Assembly (NCBI RefSeq): GCF_013030945.1
Contig: NZ_JABBXF010000059.1
Coordinates: 1 to 64,000 of the forward strand
Reading direction: 5' to 3'
Source: Streptomyces morookaense
GTDB taxonomy: Bacteria; Actinomycetota; Actinomycetes; Streptomycetales; Streptomycetaceae
Length of the DNA stretch: 64,000 bases
Shown: piece after piece, positions 28,440 through 64,000 of the stretch
Layout of the letters: each line of letters opens with the position of its first letter
Numbering within the stretch: position 1 is the first letter of the stretch
Made by a program: the position numbers and the translations under genes
Notes under the pieces: model-generated
Database searches by the model: none
Seen by the model: the letters and a program-made list of their open reading frames with translations, nothing else
What the model was told of the DNA's origin: nothing

Positions 28440-29003
28440 ATGACGGAGGTGGTCGACCTGCGGTACCCGGCCGGCGATCTGCTGGTCGTCTCCGGGCTGC
28501 CCGGCAGCGGGAAGACGACGCTGATCCGGCGGGCGGTGGCCCCGCTGGACGCCGCGGGCGTTCCGGTGCGGTGCGTGGACTCCCAGGACTCCCGCCTCCG
28601 GCTGGAGCGGCGGCTGCCCGGCCGGGTGCCCTACGGGCTGTACCGGCCCGTGGCCCGGTTGCTGCACTTCGCCGCCCTGCGGCGTGCCCTGCGGGCCGGC
28701 GGCAGTGTGGTGGTGCACGACAGCGGGCGGGTGGGCCTGGTACGGCGCTGGCTGGCGCGGGGCGTGCGGCGGCGCGGGGGTGCGCTGCACCTGTTGCTGC
28801 TGGTCGTCGAGCCGGCGGTGGCGCTGGAGGGCCAGATGAGGCGGGGGCGACGCGTGCCGCGGCGGGTGTTCGCACGGCACCGGCGCGCCATGGGGCGCCT
28901 CGTGGCGGGGGCGGCGGCCGGGCGCCTCCCGCGGGGGGTCGACTCGGTGGCGGTCCTGGACCGCGAGGCGGCGGACACGGTGCGCATCATCACCTTCGGC
29001 TGA
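28440..29003 (+). CDS. P-loop NTPase, putative kinase-like ATP-binding protein
   Basis: 187 aa with a clear Walker A near the N-terminus, VVSGLPGSGKTTLIRR (about residues 16-31). VVVHDSGR (about 95) resembles the Asp-containing strand of zeta-toxin/AAA_33 kinases. The rest is Arg-rich. The substrate cannot be told from the sequence. The ATG at 28440 follows GGAGGGAGGT closely. The gene diverges from the gcvT riboswitch operon and is followed by a GCGCCCC-type repeat, probably its terminator, before the sseB-like pair. Confidence 0.75.
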   Translation: MTEVVDLRYPAGDLLVVSGLPGSGKTTLIRRAVAPLDAAGVPVRCVDSQDSRLRLERRLPGRVPYGLYRPVARLLHFAALRRALRAGGSVVVHDSGRVGLVRRWLARGVRRRGGALHLLLLVVEPAVALEGQMRRGRRVPRRVFARHRRAMGRLVAGAAAGRLPRGVDSVAVLDREAADTVRIITFG

Positions 29004-29009
29004 GCCGGC

Positions 29010-29089
29010 GCGCCCCGAAGGGGCGCGGGGCTGTTGACATGTGCGGCTGCGCCGCGTGGGCGCGACCAGCCACGCACGGCCCGCGGCCG
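29010..29089 (+). repeat. GCGCCCC-type intergenic element, variant with inserted hairpin
   Basis: Starts with GCGCCCC-GAA-GGGGCGC (29010-29026). A second hairpin GCGGC-TGC-GCCGC (29043-29055) is followed by GTGGGCGCGACCAGCC and CCCGCGGCCG. Closely matches the element at 41697-41780, including a compensatory base pair. It lies 7 nt after the NTPase stop and may terminate it. Confidence 0.65.
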
Positions 29090-29113
29090 ACAACGGACCG
29101 GCCCCGCCCCGTT

Positions 29114-29140
29114 GCAGGGGAACCGTTAAAGTTCCCCTGC
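29114..29140 (+). promoter_or_regulatory. 10-bp perfect inverted repeat upstream of first sseB-like gene
   Basis: GCAGGGGAAC at 29114-29123 and GTTCCCCTGC at 29131-29140 are perfectly complementary around the AT-rich loop CGTTAAA. It ends 30 nt before the sseB-like ATG. It could be an operator overlapping the promoter or a structured leader; it has no T-run. Confidence 0.5.
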
Positions 29141-29170
29141 GCGCCTTTGACGACACGGTGGTTGGACGAC

Positions 29171-29926
29171 ATGAGCATCCCTTCGCAGCAGCCCTACGAC
29201 TGGCCCGCCAACGAGCTCGAGGCGGTGCTCGCCGCCTCGGTCGGGGTGGCCGGGGCCGGGCCCCGGATCGTCGAGGCGCTCGGGCGCAGCAGCGTGTGGA
29301 TCCCGCTGCCCAACGGCGGCGGCGCCGCCAGCCCGGATCTCGACATCCCCGCGATGGACATCGACGGTGCCGCCTACGTCCCGGTGTTCAGCTCCGAGCA
29401 GGAGTTCCGCCGCGTCGTCGGCGACCGCACCGACTTCGCCGTCGCGCCCGCGGTCGAGTTCGCCCGCGGCCTGCCGCCCCGGGTCGGGATCGTCGTCAAC
29501 CCGGAGGGCACCGTCACGGTGCCGCTGCCGGCGCCCGCCGTGGCCGGGCTGTGCCGGGCCGGGCGCACGGTGCTGGACGGCGACGCCACCGGCGGCCGCG
29601 TCCGGCTCTTCCAGCCGGACTGGCAGGAGGAGCCGACCGCCTTCCTCGCCGCCGCCGGGCTGGAGTTGGCCGCGACCGGCCTGGTCCGGACCGCCCGGCG
29701 CGCCCTGGCCAGCATCGAGGGCGCGGATCCGGCCCTCTTCGTGGGGATAGAGCTGGACCTCCCCGACCCGGGCAGCCGCGAGGCCGCCATGGCCGCCGTC
29801 GGCCGCGCGCTGGGCGCGGCCCCCGTGCCCTGGCCCGTCCAGCTGGTCTTCCTCGACGTCGCCCAGGACCCGGTCGGTGACTGGATGCGCGCTCAGGTGC
29901 GTCCGTTCTACGACCGTGACCTGTGA
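29171..29926 (+). CDS. SseB-family protein, copy 1
   Basis: 251 aa, matching the SseB N-terminal/C-terminal domain layout. The protein has SSVWIPLPNGG, AYVPVFSSEQEFRRV and PPRVGIVVNPEG in the N-terminal domain. The C-terminal domain ends QVRPFYDRDL. SseB was named in E. coli for enhanced serine sensitivity; its biochemical role is not settled. ATG at 29171 without an obvious SD. A second family member follows 98 nt downstream and shares the C-terminal RPFYDRD. Both lie beside the glycine/serine operon. Confidence 0.82.
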   Translation: MSIPSQQPYDWPANELEAVLAASVGVAGAGPRIVEALGRSSVWIPLPNGGGAASPDLDIPAMDIDGAAYVPVFSSEQEFRRVVGDRTDFAVAPAVEFARGLPPRVGIVVNPEGTVTVPLPAPAVAGLCRAGRTVLDGDATGGRVRLFQPDWQEEPTAFLAAAGLELAATGLVRTARRALASIEGADPALFVGIELDLPDPGSREAAMAAVGRALGAAPVPWPVQLVFLDVAQDPVGDWMRAQVRPFYDRDL

Positions 29927-45140: not shown

Positions 45141-48433
<3,293 letters not shown>

Positions 48434-48436
<3 letters not shown>

Positions 48437-48460
48437 TGCCCGCATAGGCAGTGGGCATTA
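48434..48460 (+). terminator. Hairpin at ligA stop
   Basis: Perfect 8-bp arms TAATGCCC at 48434-48441 and GGGCATTA at 48453-48460; the first arm contains the ligA stop codon. There is no T-run. A second 8-bp pair GCAGAAGG (48486) and CCTTCTGC (48539) lies between it and rmdB. Confidence 0.5.
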
Positions 48461-48609: not shown

Positions 48610-50706
48610 ATGAAACCCACCGACAGCGCCGAACCGGCATCCCGGCTGCGCAGGCTCCGCCCACCCGCGCTGCCGACGGTCTGCACGGCCGCGGCCGCAC
48701 TCGCGTTCGCGGCCGGAACGGCCCGTGCGGCCGCCACGGGCCGGGCCCTGTTCCCCGGCGGCACGACCGGCTGGTCGCTGGCCACCCTCACCGCGCTCAT
48801 CGTCGCCCATCTCGTCGCCCTCGGCCGGGACCGCTGGTGGGGCGGCACCGGCTCCGGTGCCGCCCTCACGCTGGCCGTGCTGCTGCTCTACGGCTGGCTC
48901 CCGTCCGCGCTGGTGAGCATCGCGGTCGTCACCCTCGTCGCGGCCGCCCGCCGCCACCGCTGGCGGCAGGCCTTACTCCACGGCGCGGTCGACATCCTCG
49001 GCATCGCCGCGGCCGGGCTGGCGCTCGCCGGATGCGGCGTCAGGGCCGGCGTCGAGTCCCCCTGGCCGCCGGACAGCTGGCAGCTGTCCGCCGCCCCCCG
49101 GATCGCCCTCGCGGCCTTCGTCTACCTCGCCGTCACCCGCTCCCTGCTGTGGTACTCCATGGCCCCGCGGGTGGCGCTCACCAGCATCGCCCGGGCCGCC
49201 CTGGTGCGGCAGGCCCTCGTCGGCGGCGCGCTGCTCGGCATCGCCCCGCTCATCGCCGTCGTCGCCGACCACGCGCCGGTGCTGCTCCCGCTGTTCGCGG
49301 TGCCGCTCATCGCCCTGGACTCCACGCTGTGGATAGCCCGCGCCCGCGCCGAGGAGCAGCTGCGCGACCCGCTCACCGGGCTGCCGAACCGCCAGTGGCT
49401 GCTGGAGCGCACCTGGACGGCCCTGGACGAGGCCGAACAGGCGGGCACCCGGGCCGCGTTGGTCCTGATCGACCTGGACCGGTTCCGGTCCGTCAACGAC
49501 ACCCTCGGCCATCTCGCGGGCGACCGGCTGCTGCTGCAGATAGCGGACCGGCTGCGGCTGGCCCTGCCGCGCGAAGCGGAGGCCGCCCGGCTCGGCGGCG
49601 ACGAGTTCGCGGTGCTGCTGCCCACCGCCGACTCCCTCACCAGCGCCCAGCGGGTGGCCCGTTCGCTGGTCGGCACCCTCGGCTCACCGCTCGACCTCGA
49701 CGGGCTCACCCTCGTCCTGGAGGCGAGCGCCGGCGTCGCCGTCTACCCCGACCACGCACTCGACGCCGAAGGCCTGCTGCGCCGGGCCGACGTGGCGATG
49801 TACCAGGCGAAGCGCGACCGCAGCGGCGTCGAGGTCTACGAGGCCCGCCGCGACGGCAACACCCCGGACCGGCTGGGGCTGTTGGGCGACCTGCGGCGTG
49901 CGCTGGACGCCGGCGAGGTCGAGCTGCACTACCAGCCGAAGGTCGGCTTCGACGGCCATGTCGAGGGCCTGGAGGCCCTGGTGCGCTGGGTGCACCCGGA
50001 GCGGGGCCGGGTCTCCCCGGACGAGTTCATCGCGATAGCCGAGTCGTCCGGGCTGATGCCGCGGCTCACCGAGTACGTGCTGGAGACCGCGCTCGGCCAG
50101 GTCGCGAAATGGCGGGCGATGGGCCTGGAGGTGCCGGTCGCCGTCAACGTCTCGCCGCGCGACGTCCACACGCCGGGCTTCGCCGGCTCGGTGGCGGCCC
50201 GCCTCGCCCGCCACGGGGTGCCCCCCGGGGCGCTGCAGCTGGAGATAACCGAGCACGTCCTGCTGGAGGACCCGCAGCGCGCCGCCGACACCCTCGCCGG
50301 CCTCACCGGCCACGGCGTCAAGATGTCCCTGGACGACTTCGGCACCGGCTACTCCTCGCTCGTCCATCTGCGCCGCCTGCCGGTGAGCGAGCTGAAGATC
50401 GACCGTTCCTTCGTGGCCCGCCTCGCCATCGACAACGAGGACGCCGAGATCGTCCGCTGCACGCTGGACCTGGCCCACTCCCTGGGCCTGCTGGTGGTCG
50501 CGGAGGGCGTGGAGGACGACGAGACCTGGGAGCGGCTGCGGGATCTGGGCTGCGACGCGGTCCAGGGCTGGCTGGTCGCCGCCGCGATGCCGCCGGACGA
50601 GACGACGGCCTGGCTCCGGCTCCGCCAGGAGGGCGGCTGGCGCCGGGAGGCCGCACCCCTGCATGCCGGGGCGACCTCGCAGGCCGAGGAGGACGCGGTC
50701 ACCTGA
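48610..50706 (+). CDS. rmdB: Membrane GGDEF-EAL cyclic-di-GMP protein with a TTA codon
   Basis: 698 aa. About seven hydrophobic segments in residues 1-245, then GGDEF (RLGGDEFAVLL, about 330, motif intact) and EAL (EGLEALVRWVHP, about 452; DDFGTGYSSL, about 577; VVAEGVED, about 630). The EAL metal ligands seen are conserved, so phosphodiesterase activity is plausible. S. coelicolor RmdB (same context between ligA and gatC) acts as a c-di-GMP phosphodiesterase. ATG at 48610 after GAGGGA. Codon 122 (48973-48975) is TTA, the only in-frame TTA I found in the window. Translation may therefore need the bldA tRNA. Confidence 0.85.
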   Translation: MKPTDSAEPASRLRRLRPPALPTVCTAAAALAFAAGTARAAATGRALFPGGTTGWSLATLTALIVAHLVALGRDRWWGGTGSGAALTLAVLLLYGWLPSALVSIAVVTLVAAARRHRWRQALLHGAVDILGIAAAGLALAGCGVRAGVESPWPPDSWQLSAAPRIALAAFVYLAVTRSLLWYSMAPRVALTSIARAALVRQALVGGALLGIAPLIAVVADHAPVLLPLFAVPLIALDSTLWIARARAEEQLRDPLTGLPNRQWLLERTWTALDEAEQAGTRAALVLIDLDRFRSVNDTLGHLAGDRLLLQIADRLRLALPREAEAARLGGDEFAVLLPTADSLTSAQRVARSLVGTLGSPLDLDGLTLVLEASAGVAVYPDHALDAEGLLRRADVAMYQAKRDRSGVEVYEARRDGNTPDRLGLLGDLRRALDAGEVELHYQPKVGFDGHVEGLEALVRWVHPERGRVSPDEFIAIAESSGLMPRLTEYVLETALGQVAKWRAMGLEVPVAVNVSPRDVHTPGFAGSVAARLARHGVPPGALQLEITEHVLLEDPQRAADTLAGLTGHGVKMSLDDFGTGYSSLVHLRRLPVSELKIDRSFVARLAIDNEDAEIVRCTLDLAHSLGLLVVAEGVEDDETWERLRDLGCDAVQGWLVAAAMPPDETTAWLRLRQEGGWRREAAPLHAGATSQAEEDAVT

Positions 50707-50830
50707 GGGCGCGGTGCAGGGCGGGTTCGCGGACCCGGAAACGGGCCCGGAAACAATGGTCAGGCGGGCCGTCGCCCGGAGGCCATAGGATTGGCCCCGA
50801 AACCTACACACTCACCCTGAGGATCGCTGC

Positions 50831-51127
50831 ATGCCTGGCATCACGCGCGAGGAGGTCGCCCACCTCGCCCGGCTGGCACGTCTGGAGCTGCAGGACGAAG
50901 AGCTCGACCACTTCGCCACCCAGCTCGACGACATCATCGGCGCGGTCGCCCGCGTCTCCGAGGTCGCCGAACAGGACGTCCCGCCGACCTCCCACCCGCT
51001 GCCGCTGACCAACGTCATGCGCCCGGACGTGGTCCGTCCGTCGCTGACCCCGCAGGCGGCGCTGTCCGGCGCCCCCGCCCAGGAGCAGCAGCGTTTCAAG
51101 GTGCCGCAGATCCTGGGGGAGGACTAA
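50831..51127 (+). CDS. gatC: Asp/Glu-tRNA amidotransferase subunit C
   Basis: 98-aa subunit that tethers GatA and Gat[18 protein letters not shown] and [18 protein letters not shown] are hallmark segments. ATG at 50831 with GAGGA 7 nt upstream. TAGGAT at 50786-50791 is a likely -10, giving a short leader. First gene of gatC-gatA-(small)-gatB. Confidence 0.96.
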
Positions 51128-51131
51128 GAAC

Positions 51132-52622
51132 GTGGACATCATCAAGCTCACCGCCGCCGGGATCGCGGAGAAGATCGTCTCCGGCGAGCTCACGGCCGTC
51201 CAGGTCACCGAGGCCCACCTGGCCCGGATCGACGCCGTCGACGAGAAGGTGCACGCCTTCCTGCACGTGGACCGCGAGGGCGCACTCGCCCAGGCCCGTG
51301 CCGTCGACGAGAAGCGCGCCCGCGGCGAGAAGCTCGGCCCGCTGGCCGGCGTCCCGCTCGCGCTGAAGGACATCTTCACCACCGAGGGGATCCCGACCAC
51401 CGTCGGCTCCAAGATCCTCGAGGGCTGGATCCCGCCGTACGACGCGACGCTGACCAAGCGGCTGAAGGACGCGGACGTCGTCATCCTCGGCAAGACCAAC
51501 ATGGACGAGTTCGCCATGGGGTCCTCCACCGAGAACAGCGCCTACGGCCCGACCGGCAACCCCTGGGACCTGACCAAGATCCCCGGCGGTTCCGGCGGCG
51601 GCTCGTCCGCCGCGCTCGCCTCCTACGAGGCCCCGCTGGCGATCGGCACGGACACCGGCGGCTCCATCCGCCAGCCCGCCGCCGTCACCGGCACCGTCGG
51701 CGTCAAGCCGACCTACGGCGCGGTCTCCCGCTACGGCATGGTGGCCTTCTCGTCCTCCCTCGACCAGGGCGGCCCCTGCGCCCGCACGGTCCTGGACGCG
51801 GCCCTGCTGCACGAGGTGATCGCCGGCCACGACCCGCTGGACTCCACCTCCATCGACGCCCCGGTCCCGCCGGTCGTCGAGGCGGCGCGGAACGGCAGCG
51901 TCGCCGGCATGCGCGTCGGCGTCGTCAAGCAGTTCCGCGGCGAGGGCTACCAGGCCGGTGTGCTGCAGCGGTTCGACGAGTCGGTCGAGCTGCTCAGGGA
52001 GCTGGGCGCCGAGATCGTCGAGGTCGATTGCCCGTCCTTCGACCTGGCGCTCGCCGCGTACTACCTGATCGCGCCGTCCGAGTGCTCCTCGAACCTGGCC
52101 CGCTTCGACGGCCTGCGCTACGGCCTGCGGACCGGCGACGACGGCACCCGTTCCGCCGAGGACGTCACCGCCCTCACCCGCGAGGCCGGCTTCGGCCCCG
52201 AGGTGAAGCGCCGCGTCATGCTCGGCACCTACGCGCTGAGCTCGGGCTACTACGACGCCTACTACGGCTCCGCGCAGAAGGTCCGCACGCTCATCACGCG
52301 CGACTTCGAGAAGGCCTTCGAGCAGGTCGACGTGCTCGTCTCGCCGACCACCCCGACCACCGCCTTCGCGATCGGCGAGCGTGCCGACGACCCGATGGCG
52401 ATGTACCTCGCGGACCTGTGCACCATCCCGACCAACCTGGCGGGCAACGCGGCCATGTCGCTGCCGTGCGGCCTCGCCCCGGAGGACGGGCTGCCGGTGG
52501 GTCTGCAGATCATCGCTCCCGCCATGAAGGACGACCGGCTCTACAAGGTCGGCGCCGCGGTCGAGGCCGCGTTCACCGAGCGTTGGGGCCACCCGCTGCT
52601 GGAGGAGGCTCCGTCGCTGTGA
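51132..52622 (+). CDS. gatA: Asp/Glu-tRNA amidotransferase subunit A
   Basis: 496-aa amidase-signature enzyme releasing ammonia from glutamine. Catalytic Lys in [12 protein letters not shown] (about 78), [13 protein letters not shown] (about 153) with the cis-Ser, and [12 protein letters not shown] (about 175) with the nucleophile Ser. GTG start at 51132, 4 nt after gatC. The stop overlaps the next gene as GTGA. Confidence 0.97.
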
Positions 52623-52898: not shown

Positions 52899-54407
52899 GT
52901 GACCGTCACTGAACTGGTGCCGTACGAGGACGCGCTGGCGTCCTACGACCCCGTCATGGGCCTGGAGGTCCACGTCGAGCTGGGCACCAAGACCAAGATG
53001 TTCTGCGGGTGCTCCACCGAGCTGGGCGCCGACGCCAACTCGCAGACCTGCCCCACCTGCCTCGGCCTCCCCGGCGCGCTGCCGGTCGTCAACGCGACCG
53101 GCGTCGAGTCCGCGATCCGCATCGGCCTCGCGCTGCACTGCGAGATCGCCGAGTGGTGCCGCTTCGCCCGGAAGAACTACTTCTATCCGGACATGCCGAA
53201 GAACTTCCAGACCTCCCAGTACGACGAGCCCATCGCCTTCAACGGCTACCTCGACGTGCAGCTGGAGGACGGCGAGATCTTCCGTGTGGAGATCGAGCGC
53301 GCCCACATGGAGGAGGACACCGGCAAGTCCACGCACGTGGGCGGTGCCACCGGCCGCATCCACGGCGCCCGGCACTCGCTGCTGGACTACAACCGCGCCG
53401 GCATCCCGCTCATCGAGATCGTCACCAAGCCGATCGAGGGCGCGGGCGAGCGGGCCCCCGAGGTCGCCAAGGCGTACGTGGCCGAGCTGCGCGAGCTCAT
53501 CAAGGCGCTCGGCGTCTCCGAGGCCCGCATGGAGATGGGCCAGATGCGCTGCGACGTCAACCTGTCGCTGCGCCCCAACGGCACCGAGAAGTTCGGCACC
53601 CGCAGCGAGACCAAGAACGTCAACTCGCTGCGCTCCGTGGAGCGTGCCGTCCGCTACGAGATCAGCCGCCACGCCGGCGTGCTGAACGCGGGCGGGAAGA
53701 TCGTCCAGGAGACCCGGCACTTCCACGAGGAGGACGGCTCCACCACCGCCGGCCGCATCAAGGAAGAGGCCGAGGACTACCGCTACTTCCCCGAGCCGGA
53801 CCTGGTGCCGGTGGCCCCCGCCCGCGAGTGGGTCGAGGAACTGCGGGGCACCCTCCCCGAGCTGCCGCGCGTGCGCCGCAACCGGCTGCGCGAGGAGTGG
53901 GGGATCTCCGAGCACGACATGCAGTCGATCCTCAACGCCGGTGCGGTGGACCTGATCGAGGCCACCATCGCGGCCGGCGCCGACTCGGCCGCCGCCCGCA
54001 AGTGGTGGATGGGCGAGCTGGCCCGCCGGGCCAACGAGGAGGGCACCGCCCTCGCGGAGCTCCCGATCAGCCCGGCCCAGGTCGCGCGGATCGCGGCGCT
54101 GGTCGCCGACGGCTCGCTCAACGACAAGCTGGCCCGTCAGGTCATCGAGGGCGTGCTGGCCGGCGAGGGCGAGCCGGACGCGGTCGTCGAGCAGCGCGGT
54201 CTGAAGCTCGTCTCCGACGACAGCGCCCTGGGTGCGGCCGTCGACGAGGCGATCGCGGCCAACGCGGCCATCGCGGACAAGATCCGGGCCGGCAAGGTCG
54301 CGGCGGCGGGTGCGCTCGTCGGCGCGGTCATGAAGGCCACCCGGGGCCAGGCGGACGCGGCGCGTGTCCGCGAACTGATCCTGGAGAAGCTGGGCGTCGA
54401 GGGCTGA
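52899..54407 (+). CDS. gatB: Asp/Glu-tRNA amidotransferase subunit B
   Basis: 502 aa, phosphorylates and amidates mischarged Glu-tRNA(Gln)/Asp-tRNA(Asn). [20 protein letters not shown] at the N-terminus, [12 protein letters not shown], and [17 protein letters not shown] are signatures. The C-terminal helical/YqeY-like tRNA-binding domain covers about 345-502. GTG start at 52899. Ends with a terminator hairpin. Confidence 0.97.
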
Positions 54408-57777: not shown

Positions 57778-57812
57778 ACCCGATGTCAGCCCCCTGTGCG
57801 ATGCTCGGCGAC

Positions 57813-60794
57813 GTGCAGAAGACCTCCGTCAGCCCCGTGTTCGTCGGCCGTTCCGACGAACTCGACACGCTCGCCGACGCGCTGGAGCGCGCAGCCGCCG
57901 GCGAGCCCCAGGCCGTGCTCGTCGGCGGCGAGGCGGGCGTCGGCAAGACGCGCCTGCTGGAGGAGTTCCTCGCCGGCGCCGCGGCCGGCGGCGCCGTCAC
58001 CGCGACCGGCGGCTGCGTCGAGATCGGCGAGGACGGCCTGCCGTTCGCGCCCCTGGCCACCGCCCTGCGGGCCCTGCACCGACAGGTCGGCGACGCCCTG
58101 ACCCGGGCCGCCGCCGGGCACGAGGGCGAACTCGCCCGCCTCCTGCCCGAACTGGGCGAAACCGCCCGCGAGTCGCACGACGAGGACGGCCGCGCCCGGC
58201 TCTTCGAGCTCACCGCCCGGCTGCTGGAGCGCCTCACCGCCGACCGCACCCTCGTCCTCGCCGTCGAGGACCTGCACTGGGCCGACCGCTCCACGCGTGA
58301 GCTCCTCGGCTACCTCTTCCGCTCGCTGCACAGTGCACGCCTGCTCATCATCACCACCTACCGCTCCGACGACATCCACCGGCGCCACCCGCTGCGCCCC
58401 TTCCTCGCCGAGCTCGACCGGATGCGCTCCCTGCACCGGATCGAACTCGGCCGCTTCACCCGTGCCGAGGTGCGGGCCCAGCTGGCGGGCATCGCGGGCG
58501 GCAGCCAGCCCGACCGGGACGTGCTCGACCGGATCTTCGAACGCTCCGACGGCAACGCCTTCTTCGTCGAGGAGATCGCGGCCTCACTGGCCGACGGTTG
58601 CACGGGCGGGCTCAGCACCTCCCTGCGCGATCTGCTGCTGGTCCGCGTCGAGGCGCTGCCCGAGGACGCCCAGCGCGTGGCCCGCATCGCCGCCGCGGCC
58701 GGCTCCGCCGTCGAGTTCGAGCTGCTGCACGCGGTCGCGGGCCTCGGCGAGGACGAGCTGATCGAGGCGCTGCGCGCGGCCGTGGGCGCCGGCATCCTGC
58801 GGGCCACGCCGGACGGCGACGGATACCGCTTCCGGCACGCCCTGGTCCGCGAGGCCGTCGTCGACGATCTGCTGCCCGGCGAGCGTTCCCGCCTCAACAG
58901 GCGCTATGCGCATGCTCTGGAGGCGGATCCGGGCCTCGTCCGGGCCGACGAACTCCCGGCCCGCCTCGCCAGCCACTGGTACCACGCGCACGATCCGGCC
59001 AAGGCGCTGCCCGCCGTCCTCGCCGCCGCCGTGCACGCCCGCCGGCGCTACGCCTACACCGAGCAACTGCGCCTGCTGGAACGCGCGCTGGAGCTGTGGG
59101 AGGACGTCCCGAAGGAGGTCCGCGAAGCCCAGCGGCCGTTCGACCACGCGGACGTCTATCCCGCGTGCGGCTGTGACGACGAGGCGCTGCGCCGGCTCGA
59201 CCTGCTGGCGGAGATCGTGGTCGCCGCGCACATGTCGGGGGAGCGCGAGCGCTCGCTGGCCGTGGCCAGGAAGGCGCTGCGCATGCTGGACGAGACCAAG
59301 GACCCGCTGCGCGCGGCCTGGTTCTGGACGCAGCAGGGCAAGGCGGCGGAGGGCCTGGCACGCGGCGACGGCCGGGCGGAGCTCGGCCGGGCGCAGGAGC
59401 TGGTCCGGGGGCTGCCGCCGTCCCCGGTGCACGCCGAAGTGATCGCGCAGGCCGCCGCGTGGAGCGCCGTCCACACGCCGGGCCCGGAGAGTTACGCCAC
59501 CGCCGAGCAGGCGGTCGAGCTGTCCCGGCTCGTCGGGGCCGAGAGCACGGGGCTCAGCGCCCGGCTCACCCTGGGCGGGCACCGGATCGACTCGGGGGAC
59601 GTCGAGGGCGGCCTCGCCGAGATGCGCGCCGTCTGCGCCCGCGCCGTCGAGCTCGGCGAGGTCCATGTCCTGGGGCGCTGCTACATCAACCTGGCCTCCG
59701 CCCTGGAGGGTGTGGGCCGTTCCGCGGAGGCCGTCACGGTCGCGGACGAGGGCGTCGAGGTGCTGCACCGCTTCGGCCTGCGCGACTCGACGGCCTGGGT
59801 CCACGGCAACAAGGCCTGTTCCCTGTACTCGCTGGGCCGTTGGCCGGAGGCGGAGGAGGCGGCCCGCGAGGCGCTGCGCCTGGCGCGGACCCGCATGCCC
59901 CGGGGCGCGGCGGCCAAGCGCTTCGCGCTGCTGGCCCTGGCCCGCGGCGAGTGGGACGCGGCCGAGCGCGAACTGGCCGTGGCCCGCGCGCACTACGGCA
60001 CGCACGACCCGCAGCCGCAGTACGAGATCCCCTTCGGCCACTGCACCCTGGAACTGGCCGCCGCCCGCGGCCGGTTGACCGATGCCCGCGCCGCCCTCGA
60101 CGAGACCCTGCGCCCGGGCCTCCCGGCCGCCGCCCAGCGCTACGCCTGGCCGCTGCTGATCGCCGCGGCCACGGCCGAGGCGGACGCGCGCGGCCTGCCG
60201 GCGGCCGAGCAGGGCCGTGCCGCGGTCCTCGGCAGTATCCGGGCCGCCGCCAAGCGGCTGCCGCGGTTCATCCCGGTATGGCAGGCCCACGCGCTCTATC
60301 TGGACGCCGAACTCCTGCGCGCGGATGGCTGTGAGGACGCACATCGCTGGGCGGAGGTCGTGGCCGCCTTCGAGCTGCTCGACCGGCCCTACGAACTCGC
60401 CCGCGCCCGGTACCGCTGGGCCGCCTCCCTGCTGGGTGCGGGCGGAGAGGGGGCGGCCGAGCCACTGGCCGCGGCCCACACCACCGCCGTCCGGCTGGGC
60501 GCCCGGCCGTTGCGCGAGGCCGTCGAACTGCTGGGGCGGCGGGCCCGGTTGTCCCTGGGCGGTAACCGGCAGACGGGCGACGGTCTCGGGCTGACCCCGC
60601 GGGAGCGTGACGTCCTGCGCCTGGTGGCGCTGGGCCACAGCAATGGTCGGATAGCCGAGGAGCTGTTCATCTCGCCGAAGACGGTGAGCGTGCACGTCTC
60701 CAACATCCTTGCCAAGCTCGGCGTCTCGGGCCGCGGCGAGGCCGCCGCGACGGCGCACCGGATGGGGCTGTTCAGCCCGCCGGTCCGCAGCTGA
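57813..60794 (+). CDS. LAL-type LuxR-family transcriptional regulator
   Basis: 993 aa from the GTG at 57813; ATGs at 57783 and 57801 are in-frame alternatives. The AAA-type ATPase domain has Walker A GGEAGVGKTRLLEEF (about 35) and Walker B-like LVLAVEDLHWADRST (about 149). A long TPR-like helical region follows. The C-terminal LuxR HTH reads LTPRERDVLRLVALGHSNG and SPKTVSVHVSNILAKLG (about 930-970). GATGCT, 7 nt before the GTG, resembles a leaderless -10 but lacks the first T. Ligand and targets unknown. Confidence 0.92.
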   Translation: MQKTSVSPVFVGRSDELDTLADALERAAAGEPQAVLVGGEAGVGKTRLLEEFLAGAAAGGAVTATGGCVEIGEDGLPFAPLATALRALHRQVGDALTRAAAGHEGELARLLPELGETARESHDEDGRARLFELTARLLERLTADRTLVLAVEDLHWADRSTRELLGYLFRSLHSARLLIITTYRSDDIHRRHPLRPFLAELDRMRSLHRIELGRFTRAEVRAQLAGIAGGSQPDRDVLDRIFERSDGNAFFVEEIAASLADGCTGGLSTSLRDLLLVRVEALPEDAQRVARIAAAAGSAVEFELLHAVAGLGEDELIEALRAAVGAGILRATPDGDGYRFRHALVREAVVDDLLPGERSRLNRRYAHALEADPGLVRADELPARLASHWYHAHDPAKALPAVLAAAVHARRRYAYTEQLRLLERALELWEDVPKEVREAQRPFDHADVYPACGCDDEALRRLDLLAEIVVAAHMSGERERSLAVARKALRMLDETKDPLRAAWFWTQQGKAAEGLARGDGRAELGRAQELVRGLPPSPVHAEVIAQAAAWSAVHTPGPESYATAEQAVELSRLVGAESTGLSARLTLGGHRIDSGDVEGGLAEMRAVCARAVELGEVHVLGRCYINLASALEGVGRSAEAVTVADEGVEVLHRFGLRDSTAWVHGNKACSLYSLGRWPEAEEAAREALRLARTRMPRGAAAKRFALLALARGEWDAAERELAVARAHYGTHDPQPQYEIPFGHCTLELAAARGRLTDARAALDETLRPGLPAAAQRYAWPLLIAAATAEADARGLPAAEQGRAAVLGSIRAAAKRLPRFIPVWQAHALYLDAELLRADGCEDAHRWAEVVAAFELLDRPYELARARYRWAASLLGAGGEGAAEPLAAAHTTAVRLGARPLREAVELLGRRARLSLGGNRQTGDGLGLTPRERDVLRLVALGHSNGRIAEELFISPKTVSVHVSNILAKLGVSGRGEAAATAHRMGLFSPPVRS

Positions 60795-63209: not shown

Positions 63210-64000
63210 GTGAGCGCCCCCGGAGCGGCCCTGCCGCGGCGGACGATGCCCGCCTCCGGCTCGGGCGTGGTCCCCCAGCTCCTCCTCGCCCTCGTCTGCG
63301 GCGGCTACGCCACGGGCGCCGCCTTCGGCTGGGGCTCGGCCGAGCTGGCCCTGACCATGGGCGACTTCGGGCTCAGCGGCGCGGCGGGCCTCGCCGCGGC
63401 CTCCTGCTTCTGGTACGGCCGCACGCACAGCAGCCGGTTCCGGCCCGCCTGGCTGCTGTTCGCCGCCTCCTCCGCGATGGCCGGCTTCGGCAACTTCGTC
63501 TGGGGCTGGTACGAGGTCGTCCTCGGGCGGCACGTGCCGAGCCCGTCCCCGGCCGACTTCTGCTTCCTGCTCTTCGCGCCGCCCGCCATCATCGGCCTGC
63601 TGGTGCTCGCCCGCCGCCCGGTCACCCGGGCCGGCTGGGTCTGTCTCGGCCTCGACTCGTGGCTCATCGGCGGCTCGCTGCTGACCCTCTCCTGGAGCCT
63701 GGCCCTCGCGCACACGGCGCACTTCGCCGGCGAGACGGTCGCGCAGGCCGCCCTCTCGCTGGCGTACCCGCTGCTGGACATCGTGCTGGTGTCGATGGTG
63801 CTGGCGCTGCACTTCAAGCGCTCGTCCGCCAACCGCTCCGCGATCAACACCGCCATCGCCGCCCTCGCGCTGACCGTCCTGTGCGACGCCCTGTTCACCT
63901 CCCCGCTGCTGCGCGAGCACTACCGCTCGGGCCAGATCCTGGACGCGGGCTGGTTCGCGGGCTACATGCTCATGGCCTACGCGCCCTGGGTGGCCCGCGA
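63210..64000 (+). CDS. Membrane protein, N-terminal part (likely c-di-GMP signalling protein)
   Basis: GTG at 63210 has GGGGAGG 7 nt upstream. The frame stays open to the window end (263 codons). About eight hydrophobic segments are visible (QLLLALVCGGYATGAAFGW, GLSGAAGLAAASCFW, AWLLFAASSAMAGFGNFVWGW, CFLLFAPPAIIGLLVL, SWLIGGSLLTLSWSLAL and others). This matches the N-terminal sensor of GGDEF/EAL proteins found here in Streptomyces. The catalytic domains would lie beyond the window, so that role is inferred from synteny only. Confidence 0.6.
   Translation, partial: MSAPGAALPRRTMPASGSGVVPQLLLALVCGGYATGAAFGWGSAELALTMGDFGLSGAAGLAAASCFWYGRTHSSRFRPAWLLFAASSAMAGFGNFVWGWYEVVLGRHVPSPSPADFCFLLFAPPAIIGLLVLARRPVTRAGWVCLGLDSWLIGGSLLTLSWSLALAHTAHFAGETVAQAALSLAYPLLDIVLVSMVLALHFKRSSANRSAINTAIAALALTVLCDALFTSPLLREHYRSGQILDAGWFAGYMLMAYAPWVAR

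Follow-up and report, generated by a model that had tools for sequence, protein, structure and literature searches.

The rmdB gene of the 64,000-nucleotide stretch of Streptomyces morookaense DNA analyzed here (the window) carries a single TTA leucine codon, at codon 122. Among 252 orthologues, TTA at this codon is limited to the window's own clade; other lineages of the genus have TTA in the same gene at other codons. We judge it likely that rmdB is gated by bldA in the window strain, with the brake being often kept and its site changing across the genus. The codon seen here thus probably ties the production of RmdB to a developmental tRNA.

The rmdB gene and its TTA codon

A preliminary description of this DNA, made from its letters, had named the gene rmdB and read an in-frame TTA at its codon 122. 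Both statements hold, the first through the Pfam GGDEF and EAL domains and the orthology with SCO5495 (name and number as tabulated in PMC7911125), the second through the sequence and its translation, in which the codon falls within RWRQALLHGAV. The frame is open from ATG to stop without an inner stop, and its leucine codons comprise 64 CTG, 41 CTC, 2 TTG and the one TTA. An alternative GTG start at 48451 would make the TTA codon 175, still in frame; the domain positions published for S. venezuelae RmdB, with GGDEF at 258-421, fit a start near the ATG. The EAL motif reads LEALVRW. Since c-di-GMP phosphodiesterase activity and an effect on sporulation are published for RmdB orthologues (for S. 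ghanaensis in PMC7026642), the window protein is predicted to be such a phosphodiesterase. Its residues 1-251 are hydrophobic to the eye only, and its N-terminal membrane helices are predicted by homology with S. venezuelae RmdB, for which eight helices have been described at 28-232.

An rmdB orthologue was found in 384 of 392 genomes of the genus (E<=1e-150), with one match per genome. The neighboring genes, which we take to be ligA, gatC, gatA and gatB (Table 1), accompany it widely, ligA being shared by 101/101 and gatA by 98/101 of the stretches compared, some of which end at contig ends. The source genome comprises 7.47 Mb in 237 contigs. Of the named relatives found, the verticillate species S. 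netropsis and S. orinoci are the closest.

Table 1. Coordinates of rmdB, its parts and its neighbors in the window.
Feature	Coordinates	Strand	Basis or remark
rmdB	48610..50706	+	translation; Pfam; genus orthologues; 698 aa; N-terminal region, GGDEF, EAL
TTA Leu codon 122 of rmdB	48973..48975	+	N-terminal (membrane-region) coding part, 5' of GGDEF and EAL
GGDEF domain of rmdB	49363..49821	+	residues 252-404; Pfam 7.2e-40
EAL phosphodiesterase domain of rmdB	49888..50583	+	residues 427-658; Pfam 2e-72
ligA	45998..48436	+	upstream neighbor, control gene
gatC	50831-51127	+	downstream neighbor, control gene
gatA	51132-52622	+	downstream neighbor, control gene
gatB	52899-54407	+	downstream neighbor, control gene

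Two further genes of the region were observed. Positions 57783-60791 (+) encode a large AAA-ATPase/LuxR-type regulator; just 5/101 stretches, the window counted, gave a usable match to this gene, a figure to be read with the proviso that many stretches may stop short of it. Just past base 64000, 14 kb downstream of rmdB and on the same strand, lies a PAS-GGDEF-EAL gene with a long N-terminal part (G000:C193:64626-65912; L004), whose product we take to be cdgC-like; the part read contains no TTA, and its start is perhaps missing.

The trinucleotide TTA occurs 52 times on the two strands of the window, and nine open reading frames with GC3 > 0.75 contain it in frame, rmdB among them. The other eight were judged not to be genes, either because a better reading frame runs opposite or across them or because their composition is unlike that of coding DNA. 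One of them, 50804-51529 (-), is antisense over gatC/gatA; the least clear case is 28571-29926 (+), which overlaps only partially. These verdicts are our own judgement, not annotation, and by them rmdB has the only convincing in-frame TTA of the window, in agreement with the earlier claim that no other gene called there contains one. If TTA were as frequent as in 13 other local orthogroups, where it accounts for 6 of 32,639 leucine codons, a gene with 108 leucines would be expected to contain about 0.02 TTA. A search with a bldA sequence gave one match in the strain's own genome, a bldA-like tRNA-Leu(UAA) gene at G000:C185:74199-74281 (-), 94% identical over 83 bases; the sole genome match to an anticodon-arm pattern with the anticodon TAA falls inside it.

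Distribution and turnover of the TTA sites

The main sample comprises the window and 100 genomes (G001-G101 in handle order, G050 being without a match), drawn evenly over the genus, with stretches of at most 20 kb. A larger set started from 300 loci with an rmdB above 60% identity and retained 252 after removal of identical cores; it is tilted towards the window's nearer relatives and still includes close species. In the main sample, 49 of the 101 species have an rmdB with TTA and 52 have one without, the codon occurring at 12 sites (21, 31, 38, 86, 91, 122, 142, 203, 208, 233, 284 and 336 in window numbering). The larger set divides similarly into 129 orthologues with TTA and 123 without, and 126 of the former have exactly one. 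A multiple codon alignment places these TTAs at 15 sites, superseding a count of 17 from pairwise alignments, and the sites are occupied in 74, 14, 11, 7, 6, 5, 4, 2, 2, 2, 2, 1, 1, 1 and 1 species. Each separate codon column implies a separate origin of TTA, whichever tree is used. The counts omit in-frame TTAs that precede the assumed start in certain relatives, as the start is uncertain. Five loci (L026, L027, L039, L040 and L049) have such a TTA 42 codons ahead of the point that matches the window's rmdB start, and a few others have one elsewhere upstream; if the true start lies further upstream, the TTAs of these five loci would be additional sites.

At site 122, TTA is present in 11/11 sampled species of the window's clade and in 0/241 other orthologues, the 11 carriers forming one clade with no further members. 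On a reference tree built from gatA, gatB, gatC, ligA and a methionine-synthase-like gene, this site (5 species) requires a single change. The preliminary description had proposed a search of the orthologues for TTA at this codon and had considered that it might be private to the strain. The search recovers the codon throughout the clade but not beyond it, 241 of 252 orthologues being without it, and the idea of a private mutation fails, as all 11 sampled clade members carry the codon; ten non-identical orthologues sharing it with the source strain rule this out.

The largest clade has its TTA at site 336, which falls within GGDEF and is CTG in the window. This site changes seven times on the reference tree (27 species), and the common ancestor of its carriers comprises 34 tips, 7 of them without TTA336. 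These 34 tips share 83 invariant leucine columns, and in all but 336 the commonest codon is CTG or CTC. In the same tips, the isoleucines at residues 311 (49540) and 474 (50029) have ATA as their major codon (71% and 85%), which is unusual in the GC-rich rmdB. The state of having any TTA in rmdB changes 19 times on the reference tree and 16 times on the rmdB tree.

In the aligned part of the 252 set, the 15 sites range from residue 21 to residue 336, and none lies in EAL. Leucine codons at or before 336 make up 56% of the total, so that the chance of finding 15/15 sites there is 2e-4, assuming random and independent sites; CTA sites fall in the same part in 14/23 cases (p = 0.006 against TTA). 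This placement 5' of EAL fits a brake that acts before the catalytic domain is made, although streptomycete TTA codons in general tend to lie near gene starts (PMC4255298).

Proposed gating by bldA and alternative explanations

We propose a mechanism in which the bldA tRNA-Leu(UAA) would be required to translate RmdB via its TTA. During early growth, when this tRNA would be scarce, ribosomes would stall at codon 122, ahead of GGDEF and EAL. Stalling would keep the phosphodiesterase low and c-di-GMP high, and high c-di-GMP would allow BldD and the RsiG-sigmaWhiG complex to restrain development. With the appearance of the mature bldA tRNA, RmdB would be made, c-di-GMP would fall and sporulation could proceed. 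Across the genus, TTA would have arisen at 15 or more codons, all 5' of the EAL-coding part and normally one per gene. The best reading of this pattern is that rmdB has repeatedly been brought under bldA control, with a replaceable site and a conserved dependence. By analogy, gating in the window strain would operate through codon 122, and we infer that selection, rather than tolerance, drives the repeated acquisition of TTA. The link between bldA and c-di-GMP drawn in the preliminary description is supported, through the TTA, the bldA-like tRNA and the S. ghanaensis fusions of PMC7026642, but it is not new. The wording that RmdB would be made "only when bldA tRNA is charged" exceeds the data, as the published argument concerns the timing of the mature tRNA and 52/101 rmdB genes have no TTA.

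The principal alternative, which we regard as unlikely, is that the TTAs are tolerated and not selected, drifting in and out of a non-essential gene with relaxed codon constraint. It draws on the fact that about half of the species (52/101) have no TTA in rmdB, so that the genus as a whole can do without gating. Furthermore, distinct TTA sites per leucine codon (12/10,694) exceed those of three non-housekeeping-looking neighbors (5/10,473) by just 2.4x, which is not significant (p = 0.14), and some of the gain could therefore come from codon tolerance in a dispensable gene. What stands out is how TTA persists over clades rather than how often it arises, and it is here that tolerance accounts poorly for the data. 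Four control genes from the same stretches have no TTA at all (ligA 0/101, gatA 0/98, gatB 0/98, gatC 0/97), and further controls have few or none (methionine-synthase-like 0/100, SDR 0/99, mnmA-like 0/73, LOG-like 1/79, MMPL 4/65); two more window genes were dropped as controls, having 1 and 5 matches among the 101 stretches. When genes were newly called and grouped, TTA was present in 47/95 rmdB genes vs 5/853 genes of the 13 other local orthogroups, none of which exceeded a prevalence of 2/47, and 47 of the 69 TTA-containing genes among all 1,556 newly called belonged to the rmdB group. CTA, a leucine codon that is likewise rare and A-ending but is not known to be read by bldA, is not raised in parallel: in the 101 species there are 12 CTA, spread over 11 sites, vs 51 TTA, spread over 12. 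In the 252 set CTA never exceeds 4 species at any site, as opposed to the clades of 74, 14 and 11 species over which TTA is kept. Within the 122 clade, only 10/92 invariant leucine columns keep a single codon in all 11 species, and only 3/12 columns with an A/T-ending major codon are fixed, TTA122 included; the equally fixed others, AAA2 and GAA8, weigh the other way. With its moving TTA, rmdB supplies a set of naturally occurring brakes that were acquired, lost or relocated, in which one could ask directly whether TTAs are selected switches or merely tolerated.

The remaining alternatives fare worse. A slow UUA codon could serve as a pause that helps RmdB to insert into the membrane or to fold its domains, rather than as a developmental switch, and the restriction of TTA sites to the N-terminal and GGDEF-coding parts, with none in EAL, would agree with this. 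However, the site moves by more than 300 codons from one lineage to another (from 21 to 336), a poor fit to a fixed folding pause, and without bldA S. ghanaensis translated the CTG allele but hardly the TTA allele (PMC7026642), which makes a pause very improbable. Lastly, a misread base or a wrongly chosen start or frame has a negligible chance of explaining TTA122: the start (ATG 48610 vs GTG 48451) is unproven, but the TTA is in frame with both candidates, and the same codon in ten other, non-identical orthologues speaks against such an error.

Bearing in mind this preference for selected gating, we tentatively advance a more specific version, itself rather less likely than not to be correct in full. 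Stabilizing selection on rmdB may act on bldA dependence and not on a codon, TTA being lost and gained at at least 15 interchangeable pre-EAL positions, usually singly, and the brake may be affordable only with a second phosphodiesterase, RmdA. Among 160 genomes examined for both genes, 147 were scored as having RmdA and 12 as lacking it, G001 being excluded. The RmdA-less genomes comprise ten without a match at E<=1e-180 and two, G086 and G365, whose sole matches are 50% and 49% identical; G031, G044 and G154, with a 74-78% match to the second half only, were scored as having RmdA. TTA occurs in rmdB in 0/12 of the RmdA-less genomes (G036, G047, G048, G064, G086, G090, G191, G248, G293, G336, G348 and G365) vs 85/147 of the others, 62/147 being TTA-free. 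The Fisher test (p = 6e-5) ignores kinship, and the RmdA state changes only three times on the tree, leaving three pairs for a pair test, too few for significance. We do not accept this association as a result and treat it as a lead. The left-out G001 genome (79% complete, no RmdA match, rmdB with TTA) counts against the idea if rmdA is truly missing from it.

Comparison with known systems

The connection between bldA and rmdB is not new: TTA in this gene was tabulated in 2013 (PMC4255298), and in 2020 the codon swap and loss of bldA that the preliminary description asked for had already revealed bldA-dependent translation of rmdB in S. ghanaensis (PMC7026642). The 2013 review lists SCO5495, the same gene as the window rmdB, with TTA in 7/14 Streptomyces and in the Kitasatospora setae orthologue, its table recording presence and not position; it also describes a 5'-ward TTA bias as general among streptomycetes. 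New beyond these papers are the clade-limited TTA at codon 122 and the TTAs of other lineages at other codons, which extend the published link through RmdB to another Streptomyces clade. We found no description of TTA-site movement in rmdB in the main-text parts, supplements aside, of PMC7026642, PMC7911125, PMC7374567, PMC10327506, PMC4255298, PMC13232838 and PMC6205966, and on a word search neither "TTA" nor "bldA" occurs in the main text of PMC13232838 or PMC6205966. In a 2023 study, as excerpted, 18 groups have TTA "in any position" and 11 have it at a fixed site, which implies that its authors met cases of moving sites. RmdB is also described as releasing sigmaWhiG from RsiG via its GGDEF domain (PMC13232838), and S. 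venezuelae RmdB is reported to be abundant and active through all growth stages, which counts against the gating reading.

The closest parallel is S. ghanaensis rmdB (ssfg_02196; Makitrynskyy 2020, PMC7026642), which, like the window gene, encodes an orthologous TM-GGDEF-EAL phosphodiesterase and has one TTA 5' of the EAL domain. There, a C-terminal GusA fusion with TTA had no activity during the first 24 h, as against low activity from 18 h for the CTG version; deletion of bldA almost abolished the activity of the TTA fusion and left the CTG fusion unaffected. The need for bldA in translation is thus shown in S. ghanaensis, whereas it is predicted for the window gene, whose TTA occupies a site seen in its own clade only; the main-text part of PMC7026642 yielded no codon number for ssfg_02196. 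Another entry, the "diguanylate phosphodiesterase" FQ762_RS28405 (PMC10327506), is probably the same gene as rmdB and has TTA at nt 1171-1173, a single site reported to hold TTA in half or more of the species possessing the gene. This TTA falls at S. coelicolor codon 391; in the window gene, codon 336 is CTG and the TTA is codon 122. Codon 391 may correspond to site 336, since candidate starts in four relatives place that site at codons 385-393, among others; against this, TTA336 occurs in only 27/101 sampled species, not half, in a sample without S. coelicolor. Finally, adpA is, like rmdB, a developmental regulator gated by bldA through TTA (PMC4255298), but its TTA is present in all 14 Streptomyces and K. 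setae and lies between two domains, whereas rmdB has TTA in about half of the species and at many sites.
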